Below, piece by piece: positions 17,609 through 59,248 of a stretch of 64,000 nt of DNA. Made by a program: the position numbers and the translations under genes. The DNA lies in assembly GCF_027557445.1 (NCBI RefSeq), contig NZ_CP106841.1:2218001-2282000 (forward strand), in the 5' to 3' direction. This DNA is from Paenalcaligenes faecalis. GTDB lineage: Bacteria > Pseudomonadota > Gammaproteobacteria > Burkholderiales > Burkholderiaceae_B. The notes under the pieces were generated by a model. The model ran no database searches, was not told the DNA's origin, and worked only from the letters and a program-made list of their open reading frames with translations. How positions within the stretch are numbered: the stretch's first letter is position 1; each line of letters starts with the position of its first letter.

Positions 17609-17925
17609 TTACTGGGTAGTTAAGGACTGAATTCGGTATTGCACCGGACTCAGTCCTTTTAGTTTTAGTTTAATCCGTTCGTGATTGTAATAGTAAATAT
17701 ACTCATCAATTGCTTTTTTAAGCTGCTCTACCGATTGCCATTTTTGCAGATGGAATAATTCGGATTTTAAGGTACCAAAGAAGCTTTCTATGACGGCATT
17801 ATCCAAGCAGTTTCCTCGGCGAGACATGCTCTGTGTCAGTCCCCGTTCGATTAAAAGTGTCTGATACGCACGGTTTTGATAGTGCCAACCTTGATCACTA
17901 TGAACCAGTGGCTTATCTTCTTTTC
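17609..17925 (-). pseudogene. IS3-family transposase orfB, C-terminal remnant
   Basis: About 105 codons remain of the integrase-like transposase. The second catalytic Asp is visible in HSDQGWHYQ (just before 17827) and the catalytic Glu in [17 protein letters not shown], followed by the usual [19 protein letters not shown] tail. The first catalytic Asp and the whole N-terminal half are missing, and the remnant has no start of its own. It cannot make an active transposase. The left limit is the stop codon; the right limit is the deletion junction, set approximately. Confidence 0.85.
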
Positions 17926-18303
17926 TTTTTTATTGGGTTGATTCATCGTTGATTGGCGTCCTTTAGGCTTAGGCTCAAGCGCTCTGATTCCACCTAAATC
18001 ATACTGCCGACGCCACCGACTGACTACCCCTGAGCCACCTCGAATATTAAAAAAAGCAACCGTTTCATGCGCACTCAACTGATGAGTTTGCTGGTGATTT
18101 AACACACGAAGTTTGAAATCTGCATCATAGTGACTATGTTTCTTAGAAAATGCCTCGATCCCATGATACTTAAAGCGTTGGTACCAGTTTAAGAGCATTC
18201 GATTTGGTACGCCAAACTCTTCATGTATTTCAGAGAGACCAAGCTGCCCTGACGCATAACTTTTTACAAGATAGAGCTTAAGTTCTGCACTATATTTAGC
18301 CAT
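17912..18303 (-). pseudogene. IS3-family transposase orfA, 3'-truncated
   Basis: The frame starts at the ATG at 18303 and encodes about 125 residues with two helix-turn-helix regions: KYSAELKLYLVKSYASGQLGLSEIHEEFGVP and HQLSAHETVAFFNIRGGSGVVSRWRRQYD. It keeps the typical orfA linker ALEPKPKGRQSTM. After a Lys-rich stretch (near 17912-17932) the reading frame runs into orfB sequence in the wrong frame and stops at 17851. The normal orfA coiled-coil end and slippage signal are lost. Confidence 0.8.
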
Positions 18304-18389
18304 AGAAAAACCCCAAAAGGTTGGAAGGGTGTCCAACTTCTTGGGGTCAGTTCAATAAACTCGGGGGGCTTTTTTATTAGCTATAACAA

Positions 18390-52044: not shown

Positions 52045-53628
52045 TTACTTAATTAGGTCAGCAACCAACAATCCTGACCCACCCCCTAAGCCCGGGCCTG
52101 GGTGGGTAGACGCTCCGATATGGAATACGTTTTTAATAGGGGTTTGATGGCCTTTAGTGGTTCCTATCTTTGCAAAAGGCCTAAACCAGAAAAACTGATC
52201 TAACGAACACGCACCAGAATAAATATCCCCACCAACTAAATTCTGATTTAATCCTTGTAGATCCATCGGACTCAATACATGGCGACCAATAATCAACTCA
52301 TGTAAACCCGGCAATACCTGCTCAAGCTGGGCCAGAATTCGATCTGCTACGTGCTCTTTCACCTCATCGGTCCAGCCCGCTTCCTTATCTACAGCGATCT
52401 CTCCTTTAGCATCTCCTTTTAAACCACGAGGCATATCTTGAATTTGCAGCCAAAGAATCCAACCTCCTGCTAGTACTCGACTGGGGTCTACAGCCGCAGG
52501 CTGACCAATTGCTACCGTAGGTTGGCTGGGAATTAACCCACACTCAGCCTGCATGACAGACAGAGACACCTGATCTAAATCAGAGGCCAAATGCACTAAC
52601 GGAACCTGTAGCATCTCCTCATTCATCCATGCCGGTTTAGCAGACAAAGCTAAATGGATCTGCATTGCACCCCGACCATAGCGATAGTTTTTGGCCGCCT
52701 TTATAACGGGTGCAGGCATATCAGGCAGTAGGTCTTGATAGAGTTGTGAGGGTGTCACATTACACACCACTGCTTTATTAGCGTGATACGAGGCTGAGCC
52801 TGCCTCTACCCCAACCGCTTTGCCCTGCTGCAGTAAAATCTTTGTCACTGATATATTCGTTTTTACTAGACCACCACGCTGTTGGATCAATGAGACCAAG
52901 GCGTCAACTAACTGACTGCCGCCTCCTTTGACCACTGGCATACCACCCGCTACAACTGCCGCAAAGGTAAGTTTTCCAATTAATGCTGACCCCGCGTCTT
53001 GAGGACCTAACCCCGAGTGCAACACCCACGGAGCCATCAAAGCCTCGGTTAGATCATGGTGCACGTGTTGTTGCGACCAGGTTCTAAAGGGAGTCAAGCT
53101 TTGGGCTGCAAACTGCAATAACTGATCCACCCCTTTTTTACGCCATTGCTGAAAGAGTAATTTATATGTAGAAAACTGATAAGGAGACCCACCTAGCAAC
53201 CCAAATAATAATTCGCCATTTTGATTGAAGATCTCGTCGGCCATTGCACCAATTAGCGCGCCGTCTCCCGCAGCTAACTGATCTAAGCGCTCTATCGCAT
53301 CCGCTATGTCTTGTTTTAACGCTACGCTACGACCGTCTGGCAGCACAACACCGGTGGTATAACCATTATTTAAGAACTCCACCCCTGCCTGAGCTAAATC
53401 CTCTTTTAAGGCCGCATACGCCCCCCCACCTAAGAACAAGGGATACCACGAGGCCATTAACTCATGTAAATACCCGGGAAATAGTTCTTCTGTACGTATA
53501 CAACCGCCTACTACCGCATTACGCTCTAGCACTAGTGGTTTAATCCCTCGTTTTGCTAATAAAGCAGCGCAAACTAATGAATTCAAGCCACTGCCTACAA
53601 TAATGACATCCCAGCGATCATCACTCAT
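52045..53628 (-). CDS. Phytoene-desaturase-like FAD-dependent oxidoreductase
   Basis: The 527-residue flavoenzyme belongs to the NAD(P)/FAD-dependent oxidoreductase group that includes PYROXD2 and bacterial carotenoid desaturase relatives. The FAD-binding motif IVGSGLNSLVCAALLAKRG opens at residue 11, VLERNAVVGGC follows, and the C-terminus has the closing GASTHPGPGLGGGSGLLVADLI. No carotenoid genes are near, so oxidation or reduction of a catabolic intermediate is more likely. It is the last gene of the Rieske operon (17 bases after the SDR). Its partner substrate is unknown. Confidence 0.8.
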   Translation of the reverse strand: MSDDRWDVIIVGSGLNSLVCAALLAKRGIKPLVLERNAVVGGCIRTEELFPGYLHELMASWYPLFLGGGAYAALKEDLAQAGVEFLNNGYTTGVVLPDGRSVALKQDIADAIERLDQLAAGDGALIGAMADEIFNQNGELLFGLLGGSPYQFSTYKLLFQQWRKKGVDQLLQFAAQSLTPFRTWSQQHVHHDLTEALMAPWVLHSGLGPQDAGSALIGKLTFAAVVAGGMPVVKGGGSQLVDALVSLIQQRGGLVKTNISVTKILLQQGKAVGVEAGSASYHANKAVVCNVTPSQLYQDLLPDMPAPVIKAAKNYRYGRGAMQIHLALSAKPAWMNEEMLQVPLVHLASDLDQVSLSVMQAECGLIPSQPTVAIGQPAAVDPSRVLAGGWILWLQIQDMPRGLKGDAKGEIAVDKEAGWTDEVKEHVADRILAQLEQVLPGLHELIIGRHVLSPMDLQGLNQNLVGGDIYSGACSLDQFFWFRPFAKIGTTKGHQTPIKNVFHIGASTHPGPGLGGGSGLLVADLIK

Positions 53629-53645
53629 TTTGTCTCCTCAGTTCT

Positions 53646-54443
53646 TTATTCGTTATTATTTTCAGCACAGGCAAACCAATGCTTAGGACCTTTACCCTGA
53701 TCAGGACCTAAAACGGAAAAACCTCCATCTACAGGGATATCCACGCCAGTAATCCAACTGGCTTTAGGTGAAGCAACAAAACAAACGACATCAGCAATTT
53801 CCTCTGCATTTCCGACTCGACCTAACGGATGCGTCACAGCGCCGACTCGGTCGGCCTGCTCTCTATCTTTATTCGCCATCTCAGACAAAGCCGGAGACCA
53901 CGTCCATGCAGGAGAAACAGCTACGGTACGTATTCCTTTAGGTGCTAGCTCTACCGCTAAACTTTTAGTCAAATGCAACATGGCCGCTTTGGATGCGGGA
54001 TAAAGCAATCTCCCTGCCGCGGCAATTTTGCCTCCAATACTGCCCATATTTACAATCACGGACCCCGCCGCCATATATGGCACGACTTTTTGTGCCATTA
54101 ACGCCGCCGAAATTAAGTTCACGCCTAAAGTGAAATGCCACTGCTCTCTAGTTGATGCTAAGCCTGCATCCTCATAGACACACGCATTATTTACCAACAC
54201 ATCAATCCGTCCGAATTGGCGCTTAATTTTTTCAATCCCAACATCAATCGCCCTATCATCTTGAATATCAATAGCGGTGAACTGAGCTAGCCCATTGGAC
54301 TGCAGCTCATTTTCTAGCTGCTGGCCTGCCTCGTGATTCTGATCAACAATAACGACACAATCGCCCTGCGCTACAAATGCGCGTACGATAGCCGCCCCTA
54401 GCCCTTGGCCCCCCCCTGTCACGATAACAACCCGCTTTGTCAT
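53646..54443 (-). CDS. Short-chain dehydrogenase/reductase of the Rieske operon
   Basis: The 265-residue classical SDR has the cofactor motif VTGGGQGLGAAIV at residues 7-19, NNACVYEDAG, a catalytic Ser in NMGSIGGK, and YPASK with the catalytic Tyr and Lys. The fourth-residue pattern after the strand (VDQNHEAG) fits NAD(H) preference. It overlaps the upstream hydrolase by 4 bases. In Rieske oxygenase pathways an SDR often rearomatises the cis-diol; here that is a reasonable inference. Confidence 0.82.
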   Translation of the reverse strand: MTKRVVIVTGGGQGLGAAIVRAFVAQGDCVVIVDQNHEAGQQLENELQSNGLAQFTAIDIQDDRAIDVGIEKIKRQFGRIDVLVNNACVYEDAGLASTREQWHFTLGVNLISAALMAQKVVPYMAAGSVIVNMGSIGGKIAAAGRLLYPASKAAMLHLTKSLAVELAPKGIRTVAVSPAWTWSPALSEMANKDREQADRVGAVTHPLGRVGNAEEIADVVCFVASPKASWITGVDIPVDGGFSVLGPDQGKGPKHWFACAENNNE

Positions 54444-55042
54444 GATATTTTCTCCTTAAATAAATATGCCATATCGACATCATTATAAATATGCGCGATC
54501 AAGCTCATACTTTTTAAAGAGGCTTCATGGGCTTGAGCTGGAGCGCCACAGGCCGCCGCCGCCACGGTTACGTTAAAACCCATATCCACCGCATGGCGTA
54601 CTGTACTCTCGACCACAGAATGAGTCGCAACACCAGCTATCACCAATCGATCCGGTTTCAACTGATTTAGAATCGCCTCCAGCGTTGAGGCATAAAACGC
54701 ATTAATTCTTTTATGAATTACCTCAAACTCCAGCGGGCTGGATTCCAATGGGGCCAAACCGGTAAAAAAGGCACTACCCCAACTGCCCTCTTGTACCGCC
54801 TGCAACTGACGCACACCCGCAAAAATAGGAGCATTAGTCGCTAAATCTGCATAGTCTGCTCGATAAGCCACCCGTACATGCACGATAGCGACCTCATGCT
54901 GACGTGCCTGCTGCAATAATGCAGTGGCTGCACAAATAATGCCCTGTCTTTGCGAGCTATTTTCCTCAATGCCAACACGAATCTTACCTTTCTCGTGCAG
55001 CACGTCATTTTGATAATGTAAAGCGAGTAAAACGGTAGTCAC
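54440..55042 (-). CDS. Isochorismatase-fold hydrolase lacking the catalytic Cys
   Basis: The 200-residue protein shows the isochorismatase fold: LALHYQNDVL with the catalytic Asp (D13), FEVIHKRINAFYAST with the Lys (K111), and GVATHSVVESTVRHA. In cysteine hydrolases of this fold the motif is GVATNVCVEST, with the nucleophile Cys; here that position (143) is Val. This resembles isochorismatases, which also lack the Cys, more than amidases. It could hydrolyse a vinyl ether or amide by a different mechanism, or be inactive. It sits between the oxygenase beta gene and the SDR. Confidence 0.78.
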   Translation of the reverse strand: MTTVLLALHYQNDVLHEKGKIRVGIEENSSQRQGIICAATALLQQARQHEVAIVHVRVAYRADYADLATNAPIFAGVRQLQAVQEGSWGSAFFTGLAPLESSPLEFEVIHKRINAFYASTLEAILNQLKPDRLVIAGVATHSVVESTVRHAVDMGFNVTVAAAACGAPAQAHEASLKSMSLIAHIYNDVDMAYLFKEKIS

Positions 55043-55062
55043 AGGCTCATCCTCTTTAGTAC

Positions 55063-55596
55063 TTAAATATGCACTTCTAAATTGCTATGTACGTCTTCTC
55101 GGTTAATCAGATTGACTTGTTTTAAGTACAGCCTCCAACTATCTGCCGTGGAGGCTAGTTTATAAATATATGAGCCAGCCAAGACTCGTTGTTGTCCAGC
55201 TCGGCTTTCTACCGATTGGAAATTAGCACGCACTACTAAATACCCTTGTTGATCCTGCCCCTCAATGGAGATATTGCCTAGCAACCTAGAGGCTTGAGTC
55301 GGTGGTTGCTGTGACCAATTACGAGCATTCTCTAATCGACGCATCCGTAACTCGCGCAGCATCTTATTTTCCCAAAAAAGAGAGATATGATCATAAGGAC
55401 TGGTTTGCTCAAAGGATTGAGGCACCCAATACATACCATCGTCAGTCCAAAGGGCTAACCACTCATCCCAGCGCCGCTCATCAAGTAAACGCGCCTCAAA
55501 ATATAAGAACTGGTTTAATGCCTCTTTTCTTTCAGCGGTTAACGAAACAGGCTGTAAATCATCAACACTTACGTCAAATTCAATATCAAATAACAT
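55063..55596 (-). CDS. Rieske ring-hydroxylating oxygenase, beta subunit
   Basis: The 177-residue protein has the NTF2-like fold of small (beta) subunits: LNQFLYFEARLLDERRWDEWLALWTDDGMYWVPQ at residues 29-62, then YDHISLFWENKMLRELRMRRLENARNWSQ. It is the structural partner of the alpha subunit, 9 bases upstream. Length is typical (about 160-180). The second subunit identifies the system as an alpha3beta3-type aromatic oxygenase and not an alpha-only one. Confidence 0.9.
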   Translation of the reverse strand: MLFDIEFDVSVDDLQPVSLTAERKEALNQFLYFEARLLDERRWDEWLALWTDDGMYWVPQSFEQTSPYDHISLFWENKMLRELRMRRLENARNWSQQPPTQASRLLGNISIEGQDQQGYLVVRANFQSVESRAGQQRVLAGSYIYKLASTADSWRLYLKQVNLINREDVHSNLEVHI

Positions 55597-55605
55597 ATCC
55601 CCTCC

Positions 55606-56907
55606 TTAGACCTCAAGCATGTATTGTTTCCACGCACGATATAAATTACGAACTGGTAACTCGCTCGTCCCATTTACCGCCTTATAACCGCCCTCAATCT
55701 TTTCATCTGTTCCGTAGTAGCGATGCATACTAATCCAATCACCCCCATCAACTAAATTCCCCTGTTGACAGCGACCATATAACTCTACGTCGTCAGGCAT
55801 AACATTCGAAGAGGGGGAGTTAATTAAATTGGCATACATTAATCCACGATGGAACAATTCCTCGGGAGCTCCTTTCAATCTAAACAGTTGAATTTCAACC
55901 TCTGTTTCATCTACGGCTACAGGTCGAATTACTCTGAACTGCTGAAAAACAGTGTGAGGGGAACCACTACCATAGAGCACTGTGTTATGACGATTTTCAC
56001 TCAATATAGCTAAAGCACGTTCCTGACCATAAGCTTCAGTTAATAGTTCATAGTGACGTTTTGAGACGGGATCAGTTTCAATGGAACCTGGGTCAAAAAT
56101 ACCTTCCATATAGCCATGCCCATGATCAAAAGCATATAAGTCCAATTTTTCCCAAAAGGTGTATGGCTCACCATTCCCAGCCATAATATGTAGCTCTAGT
56201 GGCATATTACCCTCGACCCCGGCTTGTTCTTTAGCAGCCACATGCGAAGACTCATGAGTCACTACCGCGTGCATCGTGTCATGCAGATTTTCGTAGAACA
56301 CTTTCCAATTAGAAGGTTGTCTAACCTTAAAGCTGCCTTTAGCTACCTCAACCTCACCAACAGGAGAGCGATCACAAAGATTATCTATAGAGCTAATTAC
56401 CCCTCCTAAGAACTCATGTAAACCAACTCCCTCGGCAGTCTGATTTGCAAAGACAAAGCCACGGTAGCTCTCAACTCTAGCAACTTGACGCATGGAAAAA
56501 TCAGGATGCTTAGGATCAAAACAGGTGCCTTCAAAGCCAGAACGCATAGGAGCCGCTAAATGATCACCATCTAATTTAAAGGTCCATGCATGATAAGGAC
56601 AGCGGAAGAACTTCCCTGTATTACCACAACCTTTAGCCACAATTTGAGCGCCTTTATGTGGGCAACGGTTATATAGCACATAGACATTTTTATCACTGCC
56701 CCGCACCATAATGACTTCCTGAGTGCCCAGAGTCGTAGTAATGTAATCCCCGACGTTAGGAACCTGACTGTCATGCCCTATATATACCCATACTTTTGTA
56801 TAGATACGCTGCATTTCTAAATCAAATACACCCGGATCGGTATATAGTTTTTTATGGACACTCTCATCTCGCACCATTGCTTGAAGTTCTACATTTGAAT
56901 AACTCAT
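55606..56907 (-). CDS. Rieske ring-hydroxylating oxygenase, alpha subunit
   Basis: Started at 56907, where AAGGAGGAG lies 5 bases upstream, the catalytic subunit has 433 residues. The Rieske [2Fe-2S] ligands are C82, H84 (CPHKG) and C103, H106 (CPYH). The mononuclear iron ligands are in NLHDTMHAVVTH (D210 bridging, H213, H218), with a third Asp further on. It would add O2 to an aromatic or similar substrate. The protein resembles the anthranilate/benzoate-type large subunits in length and layout, but the substrate cannot be read from it. No ferredoxin or reductase is encoded nearby, so an external electron source is needed. Confidence 0.9.
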   Translation of the reverse strand: MSYSNVELQAMVRDESVHKKLYTDPGVFDLEMQRIYTKVWVYIGHDSQVPNVGDYITTTLGTQEVIMVRGSDKNVYVLYNRCPHKGAQIVAKGCGNTGKFFRCPYHAWTFKLDGDHLAAPMRSGFEGTCFDPKHPDFSMRQVARVESYRGFVFANQTAEGVGLHEFLGGVISSIDNLCDRSPVGEVEVAKGSFKVRQPSNWKVFYENLHDTMHAVVTHESSHVAAKEQAGVEGNMPLELHIMAGNGEPYTFWEKLDLYAFDHGHGYMEGIFDPGSIETDPVSKRHYELLTEAYGQERALAILSENRHNTVLYGSGSPHTVFQQFRVIRPVAVDETEVEIQLFRLKGAPEELFHRGLMYANLINSPSSNVMPDDVELYGRCQQGNLVDGGDWISMHRYYGTDEKIEGGYKAVNGTSELPVRNLYRAWKQYMLEV

Positions 56908-56921
56908 TTCGCTCCTCCTTT

Positions 56922-58088
56922 TTATAATCCACACTGCCCAGAGAATGGGTCTTCATATTTTTCAAAAATAGTTTCTAAAATCCTATTCGTCATTTCACCA
57001 TTTTCATTTTTATATACTTCTCTCATATAGTAATTTTGAATAGGATAGTTATTATTATTAAAAGAAAAATCACCTCTCACTGAATCAAAATTCGCTTTTT
57101 TAATTTCAGCCCTTAATTTTTCATTATCTTTATAATCACCATTTATATTTTTAATCGCCGAATCAATTAATCGGGCTGCATCATAACCTTGAGCTGCATA
57201 CATAGACGGAATACGTCCATATTTTTCTTTGAACAAAGTCACAAACTCATTGTTTGCCGCATTATCTAGATCTGGCGACCATTGCGACGCATTCATCATG
57301 CCTAACATAGGATCACCTACCGCTTTAATGGTGTCCTGATCGGCAGAAAAGCCAGGGGTATAAATAGCTAGCTGTTTATTCAATCCAGAGCTAACCAGTT
57401 GTTTAATAAAACTCACCCCCATGCCTCCCGGTAAAAAGAAAAACACGGCGTCAGCGCCTGAAGCTCGTATCTGAGCGACCTCGGCTGCGAAATCCAACTG
57501 CCCCAATTTCACATATACCTCATCCGCTACATCACCTTTGAAATAACGCTTAAAGCCATCTATAGATTCCTTACCGCCGGGATAGTTCGGGGCAATAAGA
57601 AACACACTTTTATGGTTTTTATCCGTGACATACTGACCCATTGCAGACGGAATATCCTCGTTCTGCCACGACACTGTGAAAAAATTGGGATGGCATTTGG
57701 CACCCGCGTAATCGGCTGGCCCTGTATTCGTGGACACATAAATCGTGTCACTATTCAAAATGCGAGGCATCACAGGCAGTAAAACGTTAGAGAACACCAT
57801 GCCTGTCATCAAATCGACCTTGTCTCTGCGTAGTAAACGCTCTGCGGCTTGACGCCCTTCATCCGCTTTTTGCTGATCATCAGCCACAATCAATTTAGTA
57901 GATACTCCACCTAATTGATTATTATTTTTTTCTAATGCTAATTCAAAACCATCTTTAATTTCATTTCCAAGAGCGGCTCCTGGTCCTGATAATGTGGATA
58001 AAAGTCCAATTTTTAATTCTTCATTTGCTAGCACATTACTCGCCATCCCTAATGCGCCTAATAAAATTGCAATAGAAGTCCGTCTCAT
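56922..58088 (-). CDS. Branched-chain-amino-acid-type ABC substrate-binding protein
   Basis: The 388-residue periplasmic protein begins with a signal peptide (cleaved near NVLA/NEELK) and has the LivJ-like Leu-binding fold (PF13458): IGLLSTLSGPGAALGNEIKDGFELALEKNNN near the N-terminus. It is the first gene of the operon, 14 bases before the oxygenase alpha gene. No permease or ATPase genes are beside it. Related orphan SBPs in aromatic pathways bind the aromatic substrate. Its DNA is clearly AT-rich with many AAA, ATT and AAT codons, particularly at both ends, unlike the flanking genes. Confidence 0.85.
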   Translation of the reverse strand: MRRTSIAILLGALGMASNVLANEELKIGLLSTLSGPGAALGNEIKDGFELALEKNNNQLGGVSTKLIVADDQQKADEGRQAAERLLRRDKVDLMTGMVFSNVLLPVMPRILNSDTIYVSTNTGPADYAGAKCHPNFFTVSWQNEDIPSAMGQYVTDKNHKSVFLIAPNYPGGKESIDGFKRYFKGDVADEVYVKLGQLDFAAEVAQIRASGADAVFFFLPGGMGVSFIKQLVSSGLNKQLAIYTPGFSADQDTIKAVGDPMLGMMNASQWSPDLDNAANNEFVTLFKEKYGRIPSMYAAQGYDAARLIDSAIKNINGDYKDNEKLRAEIKKANFDSVRGDFSFNNNNYPIQNYYMREVYKNENGEMTNRILETIFEKYEDPFSGQCGL

Positions 58089-58267
58089 CGCCTTCTCCTT
58101 TATGTAAGTGAAAACCCTAGAATTTCACTTCTAATTATTTTTTATTTCTTTTTTCTTTTAAACTGAAACTACTTTATGTCTAAACAATCTTAGGTGATGC
58201 CCACTCCTTGAACTAGCCATTTCAAGCAGGATGTATCCCTATCAAGCAAATAGTTGGAGATAAAAAA
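58089..58267. promoter_or_regulatory. Divergent promoter region of the catabolic island
   Basis: The 179 bases between the SBP gene (minus) and the AraC-family gene (plus) must carry both promoters. Two direct heptamers, TCAAGCA at 58222-58228 and 58242-58248, are 20 bp apart, in the same helical phase. This is the spacing expected for the two half-sites of an AraC-type activator. They lie just upstream of the regulator's own ATG (58268), which hints at autoregulation. An AAGGAGA lies before each start codon side. Confidence 0.5.
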
Positions 58268-59248
58268 ATGACAACTTGGCTACTCAACGGACTACAGAAT
58301 CTGTACTTGGAAAACCCCATTTTTGAGTCTACCGATCCGCTCATGACCAAGTTTGAAACTACCGAGATTCTCAAAGACCATCAATTGACTTGGCAACGGG
58401 GTAAGGTCGACTCAGCTTTACGCTGCGCCAGTCTGGGCGAACTCTCTTTTATGTTGTTACGCTATGGGGCCGCCGTGCATATTGCGCCAGGAACTTTGCA
58501 TGATTTTTATTTATTTCAAGTCCCAACTTATGGCAAATCCGCGATAGGGGTAGGTAAACAAACCATTATTACAGACCAACATACTGCAGTCGTTATATCC
58601 CCTGACTTACCTCTACAGCTAGACTGGGAGCAAGGCTGCGAGCAATTTTTAATCAAAATACCCAAACCCTTGCTAAATCACGCCTGTATGATGCTCCTCG
58701 ACATTGCGCCCGAGGAGCAAATTGAATTTCAACCGGAATACTTACTAAATAATGCCCATGGAGTGGCTTGGCAACATCAAATTAGTGCGATGCTGTCATA
58801 TACTCAGCAAAAAACACATTACCCAGAGCAATGGCTCAAAAATCTCCAAACTAACCTGCTGCAACATTTATTATTAACTCAGCCTAACAACTACTCTCGT
58901 TACTTTCATCATGCACCACGCATGACAGGACAGCGCCGCCTACGACTCGCTCGCCGCTATATTCATGAGCATTTAGGAGAAACACTGCGTTTAGAGGATA
59001 TTGCAAAGGCATGTGACTCTAGTGTTAGGAGTCTAACTGATGCCTTTAGAAGCCAATTAAATAGCAGTCCTACACAGTATATTCGCGAAGCCCGCCTCAC
59101 AGCAGTGCGCAAAGAGCTCCTACAAGCCCCACCTACAGCTCGTGTCACAGAAATCGCCACGCGATGGGGCTTTACTCACCTAGGAAGATTCAGCGCTTGG
59201 TATAAAGAAAGCTATTTTGAGTCTCCCCACGAAACACTAAATAAATAA
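58268..59248 (+). CDS. AraC-family transcriptional regulator of the Rieske operon
   Basis: The 326-residue protein has an N-terminal ligand-binding domain of the AraC_binding_2 type (HIAPGTLHDFYLFQVPT and DQHTAVVISPDLPLQL) and a C-terminal pair of helix-turn-helix motifs: RLRLARRYIHEHLGETLRLEDIAKACDSSVRSLTDAFRSQ and RVTEIATRWGFTHLGRFSAWYKESYFESP (positions 58930-59235). Similar proteins activate aromatic dioxygenase operons (for example anthranilate). Being divergent from the SBP-oxygenase operon, it is most likely its activator with the substrate as effector; this is inference. Confidence 0.88.
   Translation: MTTWLLNGLQNLYLENPIFESTDPLMTKFETTEILKDHQLTWQRGKVDSALRCASLGELSFMLLRYGAAVHIAPGTLHDFYLFQVPTYGKSAIGVGKQTIITDQHTAVVISPDLPLQLDWEQGCEQFLIKIPKPLLNHACMMLLDIAPEEQIEFQPEYLLNNAHGVAWQHQISAMLSYTQQKTHYPEQWLKNLQTNLLQHLLLTQPNNYSRYFHHAPRMTGQRRLRLARRYIHEHLGETLRLEDIAKACDSSVRSLTDAFRSQLNSSPTQYIREARLTAVRKELLQAPPTARVTEIATRWGFTHLGRFSAWYKESYFESPHETLNK

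Follow-up and report, generated by a model that had tools for sequence, protein, structure and literature searches.

What does the Rieske oxygenase operon at positions 52045-59248 of a 64,000-nucleotide window (the whole stretch of DNA that was analysed) contribute to Paenalcaligenes faecalis? The window belongs to a 2.73-Mb genome (contig NZ_CP106841.1, positions 2,218,001 to 2,282,000), and an earlier note made from the sequence alone had described the operon as a candidate undescribed catabolic island. In this study, we found that the operon carries a cassette common to many soil, plant and gut bacteria. Our best reading is that this cassette is a sister branch of the Iad kind of system, which acts on indole-3-acetate (IAA), and not a new kind of system, and that it is undescribed in open-licence PubMed Central (PMC) full texts. 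On a balance slightly better than even, we consider that the conserved cassette turns a small indole-type N-heteroaromatic acid into anthranilate or 2-aminobenzoyl-coenzyme A (CoA). The features of the locus, taken from the list of open reading frames (ORFs) and from Pfam and NCBIfam comparisons, are as follows.

52045..53628, minus strand: flavin adenine dinucleotide (FAD)-dependent oxidoreductase of the phytoene-desaturase/CrtO-like superfamily (ORF list, Pfam, NCBIfam scores)
53646..54443, minus strand: short-chain dehydrogenase/reductase (SDR), presumed to be the cassette's diol or alcohol dehydrogenase (ORF list, Pfam, NCBIfam; 74 of 75 related loci)
54440..55042, minus strand: isochorismatase-fold protein, triad Asp/Lys/Cys replaced by H9/H110/V143 (Pfam, alignments)
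55063..55596, minus strand: Rieske oxygenase beta subunit (ORF list, Pfam; 75 of 75 related loci)
55606..56907, minus strand: Rieske oxygenase alpha subunit, of a clade sister to IadD (start moved from 56934 to ATG 56907)
56922..58088, minus strand: substrate-binding protein (SBP) of an ATP-binding cassette importer, Peripla_BP_6 (Pfam; closest solved relatives)
58089..58267, no strand: divergent intergenic region of 179 bases, presumed promoter/operator for operon and regulator (by inference alone)
58268..59248, plus strand: AraC-family regulator, AndR-like but below the cut-off (148 bits against 350; ORF list, Pfam, NCBIfam)

Six minus-strand genes (52045-58088) opposite a divergent AraC regulator had been proposed, and all ORFs were found at those places, with Pfam agreeing with the class of all seven. 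The alpha ORF had been given as 55606-56934. Its stop and class stood, but its start was revised, as AAGGAGGAGCGAA-ATG places it at 56907 and not at GTG 56934. This ATG is preceded by AAGGAGGAG and is the start position in most alpha orthologues of the alignment as well. ATG 56907 is probably the true start, and GTG 56934 is not a likely one. The corrected start lies 14 bases from the SBP stop. The other genes are as closely set: 9 bases separate beta and alpha, 20 isochorismatase and beta, and 17 the FAD enzyme and SDR, and the SDR and isochorismatase genes overlap by 4 bases.

We searched for alpha orthologues in a first set of 101 genomes, consisting of this genome and its relatives. An orthologue at 64-100% identity was present in 13 genomes, this one included, and the remaining matches reached at most 46%. 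Beta, isochorismatase and SDR genes lay beside or near alpha in all 13 loci, and the order alpha-beta-isochorismatase-SDR was kept in 11, the isochorismatase gene having moved in L045 and L046. Twelve of these loci showed SBP and 11 showed AraC (L036 and L039 end at contig ends, and L046 has no SBP in its stretch). A second set, of named genomes, gave at least 597 matching stretches. The best 80 of 466 relatives comprised 75 loci of one alpha clade, clade A (64-94% identity), and five Bradyrhizobium loci (44-45%). Within these best 80, the closest alphas came from an Alcaligenaceae genome (94%) and from Paenalcaligenes (86-89%). At least eight of the 75 clade-A loci lie on the same contigs as in the earlier genome searches, and gene counts over the 75 are lower bounds, as some loci are cut by contig ends. 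Alpha and beta were present in 75 loci, SDR in 74, and isochorismatase in 72 at half coverage or 73 at 45% coverage. AraC homologues occurred in 57 and SBP homologues in 50, counting any copy anywhere in the stretch, and an IadC-like reductase in 35. When the six-gene order was looked for, as the earlier note had suggested, the order alpha-beta-isochorismatase-SDR recurred in 66 of the 75 loci but the FAD enzyme was present in only 13. These four genes are the stable core of the cassette, and the FAD enzyme is its variable part.

The cassette was found in Alcaligenaceae, Comamonadaceae, Burkholderiaceae, Zoogloeaceae and Pseudomonas, and on plasmids. The idea of a local island was therefore given up, since the cassette is instead spread over several families and plasmids. 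On the carbazole plasmid pCAR1 (L127, 3247-27789), a cassette with a reductase and a dienelactone hydrolase (DLH) adjoins antABC. The available passages of the pCAR1 literature assign no function to the ORFs of the cassette, and in the published transcription-unit table, as far as those passages reproduce it, ORF21 alone is listed from this stretch, which by position is the hydrolase. The Agrobacterium plasmid NZ_CP049219.1 (L128, 77741-94205) has a more distant cassette (alpha 54%). It includes the FAD enzyme, and with it go a Liv transporter, MarR, a P450, a 2Fe-2S protein and an FAD-dependent oxidoreductase. Pseudomonas sp. Root562 has two cassettes with antABC on separate contigs (L089 and L104); both are among the best 80 loci and share this one strain name.

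Both the Rieske and the Ring_hydroxyl_A Pfam models were above cut-off for the window alpha. Alpha sequences from 40 of 41 selected loci, L053 being left out for a stop, were placed in a tree of 53 rows. In the 43 rows of clade A, the Rieske ligands C91, H93, C112 and H115 and the iron ligands H222, H227 and D382 were invariant (43 of 43). Judged by these residues, the window enzyme is an intact-ligand Rieske non-heme iron ring-hydroxylating oxygenase. Its best solved-structure matches were 9o71 and 7yls, the latter of which we take to be an earlier IadD structure. Identity to 9o71, which is the Variovorax IadDE according to the available passages of PMC12633357, was 41.1% over 423 columns (clade-A range 39.5-44.2%), and the window alpha is 45% identical to the genome's own paralogue. 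The earlier note had called for a tree with characterised Rieske oxygenases. In the tree now built, clade A is one side of a branch with fork support of 99/97, and its sister group consists of three Iad rows and five Bradyrhizobium rows and not of the AntA row, although long branches (AntA, a third Rieske oxygenase of this genome, and 9o71) call for caution about depth. The alpha subunit thus does not group tightly with a characterised enzyme of the same gene set: IadD is at 41%, falls in a separate clade and, in the part of PMC12633357 available, lies in a cluster with another gene set. The IAA pocket of IadD has been described, in the available text of PMC10374108, as N210, L211, H216, H221, F251, H311, K322, R329 and Y362. 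In all 43 clade-A rows, F251 is replaced by N and K322 by H, and the remaining seven residues are kept save for one L to M change. L211 itself is Q in seven of eight Iad/Bradyrhizobium rows.

The isochorismatase-fold protein had been labelled Cys-less. An alignment of 37 rows was made from the window protein and 36 of the 41 selected loci (L053, L054, L077 and L094 were left out by choice and L100 because its extended start contains a stop), and the triad positions were taken from the alignment to triuret hydrolase. The fold is present by Pfam, but the Asp-Lys-Cys triad is replaced, by H9 and H110 in 37 of 37 rows and by V143 in 34 of 37, the other three having T. In this respect the protein differs from the cysteine hydrolases NicF, RutB and triuret hydrolase, which have Asp, Lys and Cys. 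The label was therefore right for the catalytic cysteine and wrong for the whole protein, which has cysteines elsewhere, such as C165. As none of the three residues that carry out catalysis in the hydrolase family is retained, the simple hydrolysis suggested earlier is doubtful.

Genes around the cassette point to the end product. Anthranilate-type genes were found within about 10 kb in 31 of the 75 loci. In 17 loci these were antA-type genes, and in 14 a gene for a CoA ligase related to benzoate-CoA ligases, of which a representative scored 351 bits against that family's cut-off of 375. Hydratase and RidA genes accompany it in 13 of the 14. A homologue (69%) of the PRK08255-type bifunctional hydroxylase lies upstream of one CoA-ligase-type locus. 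We take this set of CoA ligase, hydratase, RidA and hydroxylase, from general knowledge, to be the 2-aminobenzoyl-CoA route. Pseudomonas accounts for 19 of the 75 loci, 17 of them with antA; in the two without (L071 and L098), the upstream flank ends at about 1 kb. Because several neighbour layouts exist, this is not one inherited arrangement. DLH was present in 30 of the 31 loci (the exception, L092, is incomplete), and the FAD enzyme in none. Anthranilate as the product class is thus moderately supported by the DLH-type relatives, and by homology it may extend to the window.

The FAD enzyme and DLH behaved as two alternative modules. Among the 75 loci, 13 had the FAD enzyme, 43 DLH, none both and 19 neither. 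The chance of zero overlap under independence is 2.7e-6, a figure that is optimistic because the loci are related. In Burkholderia and Paraburkholderia, both types occur in the same slot behind SDR (DLH in L058, L060 and L085; the FAD enzyme in L086 and L114). The desaturase-like flavoenzyme of the earlier description kept its superfamily class, with NCBIfam scores below cut-off (CrtO 187.8 bits against 1000; crtI_fam 85.3 against 238.1), but it is one of two alternative modules and not a fixed part of the cassette. We also searched 34 genomes (14 FAD-type and 20 DLH-type) for a kynurenine-formamidase-like hydrolase (KFase), IorA and IadD at E-value thresholds of 1e-40, 1e-60 and 1e-150. All three were present in the same 24 genomes, namely 14 of 14 FAD-type and 10 of 20 DLH-type. 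Because this co-occurrence is exact for all three, it does not tie KFase to the FAD enzyme; that link is drawn from gene adjacency and from the KFase tree. There, 11 rows from FAD-type genomes form one clade (100/99), which includes this genome's copy and the four encoded next to the FAD enzyme but not three Zoogloeaceae copies. Two IorA matches had one stop codon inside the aligned stretch (G101:C54:39938-42202 and G104:C1:2706115-2708334).

A second, iad-like locus of this genome (L004, G000:C1:2383000-2402999) has iadC, iadD and iadE homologues, CoA ligase, thiolase, SDR, KFase, nitrilase, a PRK08255-type (salicylyl-CoA-5-hydroxylase-type) hydroxylase, MarR, a TRAP transporter and a gentisate-dioxygenase-like gene (309 bits, cut-off 442). 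We consider this mix an unusual setting for an iad locus. Labels for iadF, iadG and iadH there follow enzyme class and order after the available passages of PMC12633357 and not a comparison with the Variovorax proteins, and no IadJ was identified at L004. The Achromobacter CoA ligase has a homologue (68%) at C1:2186167-2187804, which stands alone. No gene of this genome passed the AntA cut-off, and no antABC was found in it; the genome nevertheless plausibly encodes takers for 2-aminobenzoyl-CoA. The alpha subunit of the third Rieske oxygenase (L003/L005, around G000:C1:2561851-2562546) shares 35% identity with the window alpha across residues 26-260. It is accompanied by a beta subunit, a ferredoxin-like ORF and a further ORF that, by eye, resembles an extradiol-type dioxygenase subunit.

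We infer the following scheme, including each reaction, the step order, the anthranilate end product and the substrate. SBP and a Liv-type permease encoded elsewhere in the genome would take up an aromatic carboxylate; the closest solved relatives of SBP mostly bind hydroxybenzoates. A Liv permease beside the Paenalcaligenes cassette in L036 was considered and rejected, as only a weak LivG match (28%) was there. Alpha and beta, fed by an IadC-type reductase in trans, would oxygenate the pyrrole ring at its C2-C3 bond, a reaction likewise proposed for IadCDE on IAA. SDR would dehydrogenate the product to a dioxindole-like compound, on which the isochorismatase-fold protein may act with no Cys nucleophile at the usual place. 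In DLH-type genomes, DLH would then yield anthranilate directly. In the window type, the FAD enzyme may oxidise further (e.g. to isatin), and KFase and IorAB from the iad-like locus may finish the route. Indole-3-carboxylate is our best single guess for the substrate, although on its own it is a rather improbable one. The earlier proposal of a Rieske operon for catabolism, with an N-containing ring as its probable target and SBP for uptake, is supported, and its pathway direction becomes more specific, towards anthranilate.

Since alpha is a sister of IadD, the cassette could instead act together with the iad-like locus, as a second or accessory route whose substrate is IAA or one of the oxidised derivatives oxIAA and dioxindole-3-acetate. 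A close IadD homologue in every FAD-type genome searched and in half of the DLH-type ones agrees with this, as does the position of the cassette in G018 and G057, where iadCDE and genes for a CoA ligase, a thiolase and an SDR lie divergent to it. However, in 10 of the 34 genomes, including all eight Pseudomonas searched, the cassette is present while none of IadD, KFase and IorA reached the E-value thresholds given above. The window cassette also has no CoA ligase or thiolase for removal of the acetate side chain, and two IAA-pocket residues are switched throughout clade A. We therefore regard this route as unlikely.

The same end product would be reached from a quinoline-type acid such as kynurenate or quinaldate, a compact aromatic carboxylate of the kind that would suit SBP. 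However, the nearest characterised oxygenase found acts on an indole ring, and nothing quinoline-specific was recognised among 19 representative neighbour proteins scanned, which makes this very unlikely. It might also be argued that the enzyme belongs with the benzoate or hydroxybenzoate oxygenases and has nothing to do with N-heterocycles, and that anthranilate genes are near only because degradation genes cluster. SBP does resemble hydroxybenzoate-binding proteins, and BenA is the top NCBIfam model of alpha, though far below its cut-off (202 bits against 780.95). Against this, the sister of clade A is IadD and not the AntA row, and the recurring anthranilate-type genes belong to two unrelated types and are laid out in several ways, so that we give this explanation little credence. 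Conversion of an indole-type acid to anthranilate or 2-aminobenzoyl-CoA remains the reading that we prefer.

We then compared the cassette with known systems. With the Variovorax iad locus (iadC-K2), it shares homologous Rieske alpha and beta subunits, SBP, the IadC-type reductase where relatives have one, and intermediates near isatin and anthranilate, which on the cassette side are proposed. It differs in its alpha clade and pocket. The iadC, CoA ligase, thiolase and kynurenine-formamidase genes carried by iad clusters are all absent at the window locus, their classes being present at L004, and the window has no MarR but has the isochorismatase-fold protein and AraC. The iif/ind systems of Acinetobacter and Burkholderia and the WHOP system of Pseudomonas share the logic of an oxygenase, SDR, a further protein and anthranilate, and WHOP has an AraC-type regulator in the available passages of PMC12538310 and PMC6221969. 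The available part of PMC7225977 describes iif as a flavin oxygenase IifC with IifD and a two-domain IifA with a SnoaL-fold domain, whereas the window has a Rieske enzyme and an isochorismatase-fold protein instead of a flavin indole oxygenase with flavin reductase. An iif operon with a Rieske enzyme was also considered, and was ruled out since IifC is a flavin oxygenase in the available passages of those papers. The indole-3-carboxylate enzyme Icm is a flavin monooxygenase in the part of PMC6692525 available. With antABC, which neighbours the cassette in most Pseudomonas loci, the window shares a two-subunit Rieske enzyme, but its alpha is far below the AntA model cut-off (TIGR03228, 151.9 bits against 671.9). 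In agreement with the earlier note, which knew of no described pathway with this combination, no description of a cassette with this gene set was found in open-licence PMC full texts, a search that would miss one in a subscription journal.

Elsewhere in the window, an ORF at 17851-18336 resembles, by eye, the helix-turn-helix part of an insertion-sequence transposase.

Near plant roots and in animal guts, indole acids serve both as signals and as nutrients. If our reading is true, a widespread cassette, present even on the long-studied pCAR1, would provide an additional branch leading from indole acids to anthranilate. It is possible, and we suggest it tentatively, that the indole ring is opened here by a further Rieske-based route, different both from that of iad and from the flavin-based routes of iif and iac, in which a His/His/Val isochorismatase fold performs a non-Cys step and the FAD enzyme with a KFase-like partner, or DLH, acts interchangeably late in the route. 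The cassette offers a test of substrate change in IadD-like oxygenases through two residues, and the conserved loss of the whole catalytic triad in an isochorismatase fold poses a question about the chemistry of this protein.

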